The notes under the pieces: model-generated
Told to the model about the DNA's origin: nothing
What the model saw: the letters and a program-made list of their open reading frames with translations, nothing else
Databases searched by the model: none
Shown: in pieces, positions 38,721-42,131 of the stretch
Layout of the letters: every line of letters begins with the position of its first letter
Position numbering within the stretch: position 1 is the first letter of the stretch
Position numbers and translations under genes: made by a program
NCBI GenBank assembly: GCA_013002465.1
Contig: JABDJO010000130.1
Coordinates: 1 to 64,000, forward strand
Source: Silicimonas sp.
GTDB taxonomy: Bacteria > Pseudomonadota > Alphaproteobacteria > Rhodobacterales > Rhodobacteraceae
Direction: 5' to 3'
Length of the DNA: 64,000 nucleotides

Positions 38721-38729
38721 TGGTATAAT
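38721..38729 (+). promoter_or_regulatory. Extended -10 promoter of the EF-hand/ECF operon
   Basis: TGG followed by a consensus TATAAT at 38724-38729. The -35 region 17 bases upstream (ACGGGG) is poor, as expected for an extended -10 type. Transcription would start near 38736, leaving a 15-base leader with GGAG before the ATG at 38751. Confidence 0.55.
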
Positions 38730-38750: not shown

Positions 38751-39248
38751 ATGGATAAGGCAACGAAAAAAATCCTGACCGCGACAGCCCTGATTGTCGC
38801 CGGTGCCAGCATGGCAATGGCCCGCGGGCCGGAGTTTGGCGGCGAGCATATGAACTTTGAGCACTTCGATGCCGATGGCAGCGGCGAGATCACGCAAGAA
38901 GACCTTGCGCTCCTGGCGGACGAAAAGTTCGGCACCCTCGATGCCGACGGCAGCGGCGGCGTCAGCGAAGCCGAATTCGTCGCCGCCGCCGAAGGCCGTG
39001 CAGCCGAACGTGCTGCCCGGATGTTTGCCCGGCTTGATGCCGATGGTGATGGGGTTCTCAGCCGAGACGCCCTGGAAAACCGCCGTCAGCGCGGTTTTGG
39101 CGAACGGATGATCTCGCGCCTTGACGAAGACGACTCAGGTGGCGTCAGCGCCGAAGAGTTCGAAGCCGGCATGGAGCGGATGGCCGGGCGCGGCAAGGAC
39201 CGTCGCGGCGGCGGAAAAGAGCGCGGTTGGGGCCGTTGGCACAACTAA
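38751..39248 (+). CDS. Secreted EF-hand calcium-binding protein
   Basis: 165 residues from the ATG at 38751. Signal peptide about 1-25 (TATALIVAGASMAMA). Four EF-hand loops: DADGSGEITQED, DADGSGGVSEAE, DADGDGVLSRDA and DEDDSGGVSAEE. Loops 2 and 4 have the canonical Glu at position 12; loop 1 has Asp and loop 3 Ala, so calcium affinity should differ. A basic, Gly/Arg-rich tail follows. It starts the group with an ECF sigma factor, a membrane protein and a CnrX-like protein. Confidence 0.87.
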   Translation: MDKATKKILTATALIVAGASMAMARGPEFGGEHMNFEHFDADGSGEITQEDLALLADEKFGTLDADGSGGVSEAEFVAAAEGRAAERAARMFARLDADGDGVLSRDALENRRQRGFGERMISRLDEDDSGGVSAEEFEAGMERMAGRGKDRRGGGKERGWGRWHN

Positions 39249-39303
39249 GCCAAGTCAGCGCCGGATTGCCCTCGGGCTTGTCCGGCGCTACTCCGACTCC
39301 AGG

Positions 39304-39909
39304 ATGGGTCAAGACAATCGCACTTCCGCATCTGCGGTCGATGATGCGCCCGATGGTGCGCTTCTTGTTGCATTCGCCAATGGCGATGCAGCGGCCGGTC
39401 GCGAATTGCTTGACCGGATCGCGCCCAGGATTTTCGGATACGCCGCCCGTGTTCTTGGCGACCGGACCGAAGCCGAAGACGTCGTGCAGGACACCATGCT
39501 GAGGCTTTGGAAAATGGCGCCCGACTGGCGTCAGGGCGAAGCGCAGGTGTCCACCTGGGCCTATCGCGTGGCCGTCAATCTTTGCACGGATCGTCTGCGC
39601 AAGCGGCAATCCCGGCCTCAGGTCGCGCTGGATCAGGTGGCCGAACCGCCAGCGGATCTGGCCACGGCGGTCGAACGGATGACCGAAAGCGCGCGCGCGG
39701 ATGCGCTTCAAGCGGCCCTTGGCCAACTGCCCGACCGGCAAAGACAAGCGGTGGTCCTGCGTCATCTTGAAGGTCTGTCAAACCCCGAGATCGCCCAGAT
39801 CATGGACATCGGGGTCGAGGCCGTGGAAAGTCTGACGGCCCGCGCAAAACGCAGCTTAAAGGCCGCGCTTGGCGGTCGGAAGGAAGAACTGGGGTACGAT
39901 GATGGATAA
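39304..39909 (+). CDS. ECF-type RNA polymerase sigma factor
   Basis: 201 residues from the ATG at 39304. Sigma2 region (GYAARVLGDRTEAEDVVQDTMLRLWKMAPDW around 45-75) and sigma4 region (LPDRQRQAVVLRHLEGLSNPEIAQIMDIGVEAVESLTARAKRSLK around 140-185) are both complete; there is no sigma3. It is followed, with stop/start overlap, by a one-helix membrane protein and then by a CnrX-like protein, so it is probably held by a membrane anti-sigma complex. The target promoter is unknown. Confidence 0.92.
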   Translation: MGQDNRTSASAVDDAPDGALLVAFANGDAAAGRELLDRIAPRIFGYAARVLGDRTEAEDVVQDTMLRLWKMAPDWRQGEAQVSTWAYRVAVNLCTDRLRKRQSRPQVALDQVAEPPADLATAVERMTESARADALQAALGQLPDRQRQAVVLRHLEGLSNPEIAQIMDIGVEAVESLTARAKRSLKAALGGRKEELGYDDG

Positions 39910-40240
39910 GGAAAAGCACGACGATGCGGCACTGGACGCGCTGTTTTCAGCCGCCGCCGCTCGGCCAGAGCGCCCATCCGACGACTTCATGGCGCGATTG
40001 GCGGACCAGGCCATTCCTGCCCCGCCCCCGGCTGCACCTGCCACGCCTCCTTCATCCCGCGCAGGGTGGCTGACGGGTTTTTTCGCGGCCTCGGGCCTCT
40101 CGGGTGCCGCGGTCCTTGGGGTCTGGATCGGTTTTGTCATGCCCGAAGCCCTGGACACCTTTTCGCTAAGCACTGACGATACCGTGGCGCTTTCCACCTT
40201 TCTTCCTGGCGCCGATCTTGGCGCGGCTTTAAGCGAGTAA
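39899..40240 (+). CDS. Small single-helix membrane protein, probable anti-sigma factor
   Basis: 113 residues. Starts inside the end of the sigma factor gene (ATGATG at 39899). The cytosolic N-terminal part (about 1-60) has ALDALFSAAAARPERPSDDFMARLADQAI, then a Pro-rich stretch and one transmembrane helix (about 65-88, GWLTGFFAASGLSGAAVLGVWIGF). Size, topology and position fit a CnrY-like or ZAS-less anti-sigma factor for the preceding ECF sigma. No sequence motif proves this. Confidence 0.75.
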   Translation: MMDKEKHDDAALDALFSAAAARPERPSDDFMARLADQAIPAPPPAAPATPPSSRAGWLTGFFAASGLSGAAVLGVWIGFVMPEALDTFSLSTDDTVALSTFLPGADLGAALSE

Positions 40241-40246
40241 CCCCCG

Positions 40247-40735
40247 ATGACCGACACGCCACCGGAAAAACCCCGCCGCTCCTGGATCAAAGCCATTTTG
40301 TTCGTATCGCTGGCGCTGAACCTTCTGGTCGTGGGCGCGATCGTCGGGCGCTTCCTGTCCCCGGATGGTCCGCGCAGTCGCGACCGGGTCGAAGGCCCGG
40401 TCCGCAGCGTAATCGGCGAACCCTTCGTGCGCGCCCTGTCGTGGGACGATCGGCGCGCACTTCTGGAAGATCTCAAGTCTGAAACTCCCCGCATCCGCGA
40501 AACCCGCGAAAACCTGCGCCAAAGGTTCGAGGCCTTTCTGGTCGCCCTGCGCGCCGATCCTTTCGTGCCCGAAGACATCGGGCGACTTCTGGAAGATCAA
40601 CGCCAGGTTGCCAAGGGCCGCCAGGAACTGGGAGAAATGCTGCTGTTGCGCCGCCTTGAAGCCATGAGCGCCGAAGAACGCGCCGCCTATGCCGACCGGC
40701 TTGAGCGGTCGCTCAGACGCCTGCGGCGGCGCTGA
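40247..40735 (+). CDS. CnrX/CpxP-like periplasmic sensor protein lacking His and Cys
   Basis: 162 residues. One N-terminal membrane anchor (about 15-37) and a periplasmic all-helical domain resembling the family usually annotated as periplasmic heavy-metal sensor (CnrX/ZraP/CpxP). LRQRFEAFLVALRADPFVPEDIGRLLEDQR and the closing MSAEERAAYADRLERS are family-like. There is no His or Cys anywhere in the protein, so the CnrX-type metal site cannot exist. It probably closes the sensing chain EF-hand protein - sensor - anti-sigma - sigma. Overlaps the convergent pleD-like gene by 23 bases. Confidence 0.8.
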   Translation: MTDTPPEKPRRSWIKAILFVSLALNLLVVGAIVGRFLSPDGPRSRDRVEGPVRSVIGEPFVRALSWDDRRALLEDLKSETPRIRETRENLRQRFEAFLVALRADPFVPEDIGRLLEDQRQVAKGRQELGEMLLLRRLEAMSAEERAAYADRLERSLRRLRRR

Positions 40736-42131
40736 ACTCGACCCGGTTTCTGCCCTTCACCTTGGCGCGGTAAAGCGCGGCATCAGCGGCATCGAACACC
40801 TGGCGCAACGGTGGCAGGTTGGACGCTTCTTCGATGTCAAAGGTGCCGGTTCGCGCGGAAACAGCCTCGGTTTCAATGTCCTGCCCGAAGGCAACCCCGA
40901 TACTGGCAGTGATGCTGACCTGCACGCCATTTTCCAGTGGAATGGGCATGCCGGCGATCGACTGGCGCAGGCGCTCGGCAGTCCGCTCGGCCTCGATGAC
41001 GCCAGTGTCGGGAAGGACGGCCAGAAACTCCTCGCCCCCGTGGCGTGAAATCAGGTCACATGCCCTCAGGTTGTCGCGAATACGGTTGGCCACTTCGCAC
41101 AGCACTCGGTCGCCAGCCGAGTGGCCATACCTGTCGTTAACCACTTTGAAGTGATCTAGATCGACCACCATCATCACGAACCCGCGTTCATGTTCCTGTT
41201 CGCGCATCATCAGGTCGGCCAGATAGGCCTCGGCATAACGCCGGTTGTAAAGCCCGGTCAGCGGGTCAGTGGCAGCCAGGCGATAACTTTGCTCGTCAGT
41301 TTTGCGCAACCGGTCGCGCATGCGTTTGCGTTCCAGCATCGCGTCGATGCGGATCGCCAGTTCTTCGCCCGTGGCATTGTCGGCGGTGATGTCGCTGGCA
41401 CCCAGGTTCAAGGCCCGGACGGCCAGCTTGGGATGCTCGGCTGGATGCAGAACCAGCACCGACGCATGTCGCGAATGACTGCGGTCGCGCAACTCGGGCA
41501 ACAGGGTTTCCAGGGTCGCACCATCCTGCCCTGCCACGATCACATAGGCATCCAAAGACGGCAGGCTGTCGTCGCCCCGCATGGCGTCATCAAGCCCAAG
41601 ACGGTCGATCCGATGCCCCAATGTGGCACGCAGAACCTCGGGCAACTGAGGCAGCCGGTCACTGTTGTTGACAACCGCGATCCGGGCCGTGCGCGAAAAC
41701 TCCGACGGCGCCTCGGCAAACCCGAAGCTTGATGCGGCGACGCGCCGGCGCTGACATTCCAGTTCGGCATCCCCTTCACGGATCAACCCCCGAAGGCGCC
41801 CCAACAAAAGCCGGTCGGGCAACGACCTTGGCAACACATCGCGCGCACCCGCCCGCAATGCCTGAAGCCGCCGCATCGGCGAGGCATCGGCATCAATGCA
41901 CAACAGGGGAATGTCGGCAGAGAAACTCTGGGTGCGGAAAGACCGGATTACCTGTCGCGGCTGGTCCGACTGTATCCCCAGAATCACCAGATCGGGATCA
42001 CAATAGGCAAGCCTCGCGGCCTCTTCCGGGGTCGCCGCCGTAACCACATCGTAATGAGCGCTTTCGAACGCTGCCGAAAGCCGAATGCGGTTTGTCGGAA
42101 CCGGATCTATGACAAGAAGGCACTTGGGCAT
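40713..42131 (-). CDS. PleD-like diguanylate cyclase with two degenerate receivers
   Basis: 472 residues: receiver (1-120), second receiver-like domain (about 148-270), GGDEF domain (about 280-472). The active site is RHGGEEF (GGEEF at 365-369) and the RxxD inhibitory site RACD is at 356-359, five residues before it, so the enzyme should make c-di-GMP and be product-inhibited. The position of the phospho-acceptor in receiver 1 is Gly (DPDLVILGIQ, G52), and receiver 2 shows no Asp there either. Divergent from the DUF3572 gene. Confidence 0.9.
   Translation of the reverse strand: MPKCLLVIDPVPTNRIRLSAAFESAHYDVVTAATPEEAARLAYCDPDLVILGIQSDQPRQVIRSFRTQSFSADIPLLCIDADASPMRRLQALRAGARDVLPRSLPDRLLLGRLRGLIREGDAELECQRRRVAASSFGFAEAPSEFSRTARIAVVNNSDRLPQLPEVLRATLGHRIDRLGLDDAMRGDDSLPSLDAYVIVAGQDGATLETLLPELRDRSHSRHASVLVLHPAEHPKLAVRALNLGASDITADNATGEELAIRIDAMLERKRMRDRLRKTDEQSYRLAATDPLTGLYNRRYAEAYLADLMMREQEHERGFVMMVVDLDHFKVVNDRYGHSAGDRVLCEVANRIRDNLRACDLISRHGGEEFLAVLPDTGVIEAERTAERLRQSIAGMPIPLENGVQVSITASIGVAFGQDIETEAVSARTGTFDIEEASNLPPLRQVFDAADAALYRAKVKGRNRVEFSAAAGV

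Follow-up and report, generated by a model that had tools for sequence, protein, structure and literature searches.

A predicted CnrYXH-type sigma factor relay devoid of the CnrX metal site and autoregulated via an EF-hand gene in Rhodobacteraceae

The four-gene locus and its conservation

The DNA analyzed here, referred to as the window, is a 64,000-nt stretch of a Silicimonas sp. contig (JABDJO010000130.1; host family Rhodobacteraceae). It carries four successive genes on the plus strand, preceded by a putative promoter (Table 1). All four open reading frames listed in an earlier note, made from the sequence alone, were found at the positions it had given. The last three genes are tightly coupled, with an 11-nt overlap between the sigma and one-helix genes and a gap of 6 nt between the one-helix and sensor genes. 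At its stop end (40713-40735), the sensor gene overlaps convergently, over 23 nt, the end of a minus-strand gene (40713-42131) encoding a REC-REC-GGDEF (PleD-like) protein.

Table 1. Genes and predicted promoter of the locus (positions in the window)
Feature	Position	Strand	Evidence
Predicted ECF-type operon promoter, CGACGGAA-N14-CGTTTAA	38690..38718	+	Only motif match in window
Exported EF-hand protein, 165 aa	38751..39248	+	Pfam EF-hand_1, E 1e-17
ECF sigma factor, 201 aa	39304..39909	+	NCBIfam PRK12524; Sigma70_r2 and r4_2
Putative one-helix anti-sigma factor, 113 aa	39899..40240	+	AlphaFold model, conserved residues, weak HMM match
Predicted CnrX/CpxP-like membrane-anchored periplasmic sensor, 162 aa	40247..40735	+	PF13801, AlphaFold, Foldseek

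The product of the first gene begins with a hydrophobic signal-like stretch and is matched by Pfam EF-hand_1 in four stretches. Its loops at aa 40, 64, 96 and 125 (DADGSGEITQED, DADGSGGVSEAE, DADGDGVLSRDA and DEDDSGGVSAEE, respectively) comprise two canonical ones, one with Asp at position 12 and one with Ala there, as the earlier note had read them. Four canonical loops are kept in 72 of the 94 EF-hand proteins of the related loci described below. Lanmodulin EF loops carry Pro at position 2; in the EF-hand proteins of the host family, this position is mostly Ala, Thr or Ser, and the NCBIfam LanM model reaches 32.6 bits on the window protein against a cut-off of 135; a lanmodulin-like lanthanide protein was therefore rejected. 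A match to the XopAW effector, far under its cut-off, was discarded as generic EF-hand similarity.

The sigma factor scores 291.6 bits with NCBIfam PRK12524 (cut-off 264) and matches solved ECF sigma structures including CnrH (4cxf, E 1e-11), CnrH not being specifically the closest among them. The one-helix protein has no Pfam match and a weak NCBIfam match to 'anti-sigma factor' (E 0.003). Its AlphaFold model displays two cytoplasmic helices (aa 5-21 and 28-38), a transmembrane segment at about aa 57-80 and a short periplasmic tail, with residues 11-40 forming a block of pLDDT 90-95 and the transmembrane region being less confident; the conserved residues are L12, F16, R33, A38, G74 and G78. 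This predicted topology is that of a CnrY-like anti-sigma factor, CnrY wrapping CnrH by the two-helix layout (PMC7406223). The anti-sigma factors found in other alphaproteobacterial families (L228-L247) are longer and start with a YGADPxRWP-like segment that is missing in the short form of the window; searched against Pfam and NCBIfam, the class-wide anti-sigma factors returned no convincing family.

We then compared the gene order in 100 fetched loci and the window, one per genus of the host family. Three loci were set aside, two at a contig edge (L037, L069) and one without a sigma gene (L123), and two were counted in, L042 by reading its ORF, and L035. The order EF-hand, sigma, one-helix protein, sensor is kept in 96 of the 98 usable loci, the two exceptions (L084 and L100) having no EF-hand gene in the operon. 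The EF-hand gene thus travels with the sigma, anti-sigma and sensor genes in relatives, as the grouping in the earlier note implied, and conservation across about 98 genera indicates more than a chance arrangement. In the open-access literature, we found no description of the four-gene arrangement as such.

A first-pass search detected the sensor in 165 of 198 host-family genomes, one per genus. Twenty genomes without a first-pass match were searched again with a profile, which recovered a sensor in six, strongly in four (the match in G047 spans 32 positions only). A sigma orthologue (49-61% identity) was found in these four and in no other of the re-examined genomes, which have only sigma paralogues at ≤38% identity, or none. 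Co-occurrence of the sigma orthologue and a strong sensor match therefore holds in 19 of the 20 re-examined genomes, the exception being G008, whose sensor match is weaker (E 1e-9) and which has no sigma orthologue.

Promoter motif and predicted regulon

An unsupervised count of two-box patterns ahead of the EF-hand gene in 94 loci, with shuffled sequence as a control, returned GACGG-16-CGTT and its shifted forms in 62 loci, against ≤4 in shuffled sequence. The motif CGACGGAA-N14-CGT is found there in 89 of the 94 loci, its first base being free in a few, and the spacer is exactly 14 in 88 of these 89. Upstream of the sigma gene, nothing comparable is common to the 99 loci inspected, so that a second promoter at this position was dropped, and a single promoter upstream of the EF-hand gene probably serves all four genes. 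Just downstream of the ECF -10 box of the window lies a perfect TATAAT (38724-38729), either an overlapping housekeeping promoter or a chance occurrence.

The genomes were scanned with a strict form of the motif, CGACGGAA-N14-CGTTTRA, and with the reversed pattern as a control. We counted 82 sites in 67 of the 198 genomes, against 2 for the control, and the strict form occupies the same place ahead of the EF-hand gene in many host-family genomes. Thirty-six strict sites, in 28 genomes, lie away from the operon. Such sites occur in 28 of the 170 genomes with a sensor and in 0 of the 28 without (Fisher p 0.01, relatedness uncorrected), 13 of the latter having been judged sensor-less by single-protein search only. 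A shared promoter motif, as predicted earlier, is thus present upstream of position 38751 and recurs elsewhere in the genomes.

The predicted regulon is small and varies among genera. In nine of them, the strict motif stands shortly upstream of the start codon of an RND periplasmic adaptor gene (L174, L176, L177, L181, L183, L186, L189, L190 and L193), which is followed in L190 by an RND permease gene. RpoH-type sigma genes bear it in two genera (L153, L170), which suggests a sigma cascade. A small exported DRLEDRIDRRE-repeat protein of 90-94 aa, belonging to no Pfam family, is encoded behind the motif in three genera (L166, L187 and, in the genome of the window, L133 at G000:C64:9047-9074, the last by a looser motif match). 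Genes for a small membrane protein (L179, L180, L185), for b-type cytochromes and for dioxygenase-like exported proteins also recur behind it, as do EF-hand genes located away from the operon (L145, L163, L164). In the genome of the window, the ten-base -35 form has three perfect sites, one at the operon, one at the gene for the small exported protein and one at a gene for an exported hydrolase. Since only two perfect sites besides that of the operon were found and the orthologue of the RND adaptor gene (L195) has no motif, the adaptor was rejected as a target there.

The sensor and its relatives

The sensor matches PF13801 (Metal_resist) with 54.1 bits for a cut-off of 29.2; it is the sole match to itself in its own genome, and the plasmids searched gave no match. 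It contains no His or Cys among its 162 residues, and no column is conserved for either residue in 99 sensors (column maximum 16% for His and 3% for Cys), so that the earlier statement that it has no CnrX-type ligands stands. Met140 (86%) is the only conserved soft residue and has no conserved partner ligand. The invariant residues in a 69-member alignment are S21, N25 and G30, within the transmembrane helix, and R145.

The AlphaFold model of the sensor is confident (pLDDT 90.5), with helix 12-37 as the transmembrane anchor. Foldseek placed NccX, CpxP and CnrX on top, followed by Spy and ZraP; note that the NccX and CnrX matches have probabilities of 0.9-1.0 but E values of 0.06-0.5, i.e. all above 0.05. 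By sequence alone, no convincing relative was found in the PDB, and a DNA polymerase match, not significant with the profile, was dismissed as a chance helical match. CpxP, Spy and ZraP share the fold of the sensor domain (Foldseek), a fold that needs no metal; with CpxP and Spy so near in structure, a sensor of this fold that has no metal ligands is nothing unusual. These three proteins are soluble, periplasmic and linked to two-component systems, whereas the sensor of the window is predicted to be membrane-anchored and is linked to an ECF sigma factor.

In Cupriavidus metallidurans, the signal passes from CnrX to CnrY and on to CnrH, which drives the RND pump genes cnrCBA (PMC7689651). The window system has in common with CnrYXH and NccYXH an ECF sigma factor, a short anti-sigma factor with two predicted cytoplasmic helices and one transmembrane segment, a membrane-anchored sensor of the same predicted fold and, by prediction in nine other genera, RND efflux genes among the targets. 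The resemblance to CnrYXH drawn in the earlier note therefore holds for content and topology, but not for gene order, which is anti-sigma, sensor, sigma in CnrYXH versus EF-hand, sigma, anti-sigma, sensor here; the order sigma, anti-sigma, sensor is found in nearly all loci. The window system also lacks the metal site of CnrX (His ligands and Met123) and has an additional EF-hand gene. Judged from the sequences and the predicted structures, it is a putative relay of the CnrYXH type, devoid of such a metal site and autoregulated via its EF-hand gene.

These likenesses, namely the Metal_resist match, the high rank of NccX and CnrX in the fold comparison and the RND efflux genes among the predicted targets, as for CnrH and cnrCBA (PMC7689651), could also be read as those of an ordinary heavy-metal resistance switch like CnrYXH, in which a transition metal would be sensed through an unrecognised site. 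In view of the lack of His and Cys, both in the window sensor and as conserved columns in its homologues, and with a partnerless Met140 as the sole conserved soft residue, we regard this as very improbable.

The matches to CpxP and Spy alongside CnrX, together with a sensor that keeps charged residues and not metal ligands, raise a variant of the envelope-stress relay proposed below, in which a CpxP/Spy-like sensor surface would detect a misfolded envelope protein or low pH, calcium acting indirectly via the envelope. It would fit the acid induction reported for the Caulobacter counterpart (PMC13171946) and the RpoH-type sigma genes of the predicted regulon; unlike CpxP, however, the sensor keeps a transmembrane anchor and a linked anti-sigma gene, and we hold this variant to be possible rather than expected.

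The Caulobacter counterpart and the role of the EF-hand protein

A counterpart was described in Caulobacter, where the transcription of cabp, whose periplasmic product has three EF hands, depends on SigV, encoded by sigV (PMC13171946, 2026). The cabp-sigV circuit is induced by EGTA (calcium chelation) and by pH 4, its membrane link was not identified in that paper, and the cabp promoter reads GGAAA-13 nt-CGTTCA (PMC13171946). Common to this circuit and the window are an ECF sigma gene immediately preceded by the gene for a periplasmic EF-hand protein and the promoter GGAA-N14-CGTT; the differences are that CaBP has three EF hands and the window protein four, and that PMC13171946 names neither an anti-sigma factor nor a sensor. 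Monocistronic transcripts and a separate sigV promoter inside cabp were also reported (PMC13171946), which argues against the one-promoter operon model, whereas no such motif was found upstream of the sigma gene in the loci compared here.

Caulobacter genomes were located by name, via a PopZ query and via PF13801. In four of them, C. vibrioides OR37 (L363) and T5M6 (L361) and Caulobacter sp. RHG1 (L366) and Root343 (L373), a three-EF-hand gene, a sigma gene, an anti-sigma-like gene and a PF13801 sensor gene succeed one another behind CGACGGAA-N14-CGTT, the -10 box being CGTTCA in RHG1 and Root343. A C. vibrioides metagenome-assembled genome (L358) has the sigma, anti-sigma and sensor genes, its contig beginning inside the sigma gene. 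From their layout and promoter, rather than from the NA1000 sequence, these loci are evidently the cabp-sigV locus (CCNA_02838/CCNA_02837). Because the same genes and promoter are found in Caulobacter, the genes for the anti-sigma factor and the sensor may encode the membrane link missing from the circuit of PMC13171946.

The EF-hand gene is less constant outside the host family. The sigma and sensor genes stand together in 18 loci from other alphaproteobacterial families, and the EF-hand gene accompanies them in 5 and is missing in 13; in L238, L241 and Phenylobacterium L369, which have none, the motif precedes the sigma gene instead. Within the host family, G063 has no EF-hand gene in its operon (L084) but carries one on a different contig, behind the same promoter (L145). 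In the small set of genomes from other families without an EF-hand gene in the operon, no motif site pointed to an EF-hand gene elsewhere (downstream genes unread). The relay therefore exists without the EF-hand protein, at least in other families, which makes this protein more probably an output under regulation, with a modulating role, than an obligate sensor.

The proposal of the earlier note, that the EF-hand protein signals to the relay by binding calcium, is not supported in that form, in view of the loci lacking the gene and of the separately located gene of G063. It draws on the near-universal synteny in the host family, extending to Caulobacter and five other alphaproteobacterial loci, on the frequency of proteins with four canonical loops, and on the CaBP-dependent EGTA induction of Fig. 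5 in PMC13171946, according to which the EF-hand protein would be part of the signal input. However, EGTA induction is similar with and without CaBP in Fig. 6A of the same paper, in disagreement with Fig. 5, where CaBP moreover attenuates acid induction, and the Caulobacter results indicate that depletion of calcium, rather than calcium, is the stronger inducer (PMC13171946). We therefore find the calcium-input reading rather unlikely. Similarly doubtful, in our estimate, is a calcium-gated pathway in which the EF-hand protein would dock on or leave the sensor according to its Ca2+ load and so set the sigma factor free, in most host-family genera and in Caulobacter.

Two further alphaproteobacterial systems can be set beside the locus. 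The Azospirillum brasilense RpoE8 operon is alike by annotation, with a sigma gene, a hypothetical protein and a 'periplasmic heavy metal sensor' (PF13801-type), no EF-hand gene being mentioned (PMC12826043). RpoE1/RpoE4 of Sinorhizobium meliloti (ECF26; PMC3511301), likened here by description only, also belong to an autoregulated ECF operon, which may start with a gene for a secreted protein, but have a COG5662-type anti-sigma factor and respond to sulfite.

We consider it reasonably probable that the four genes are a single autoregulated operon for envelope stress, working as follows. In the resting state, the one-helix protein would hold the ECF sigma factor at the membrane via its two N-terminal helices, as CnrY holds CnrH, with the sensor beside it, anchored by a single transmembrane helix and exposing a periplasmic helical domain. 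A periplasmic change, most likely an ionic or acid envelope stress including calcium depletion, would alter the sensor, and the altered contact between sensor and anti-sigma factor would release the sigma factor. The latter would then read CGACGGAA-N14-CGTT promoters, first that of its own operon, from the EF-hand gene onward, and besides it a small regulon comprising, in various genera, RND efflux genes, an RpoH-type sigma factor and small exported proteins. The EF-hand protein, strongly induced and periplasmic, would bind Ca2+ and adjust the response without being an obligate part of the relay.

Highly conserved in the host family, this operon has nevertheless carried generic names ('periplasmic heavy metal sensor', 'hypothetical protein', 'EF-hand protein'). 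It can now be given a promoter code, together with a predicted regulon and a relay model built on the folds, and the heavy-metal function implied by its annotation is corrected. The analysis also supplies candidates for the membrane component left unidentified in the 2026 Caulobacter paper (PMC13171946), so that a route from calcium to a sigma factor via a periplasmic EF-hand protein becomes testable by gene removal.
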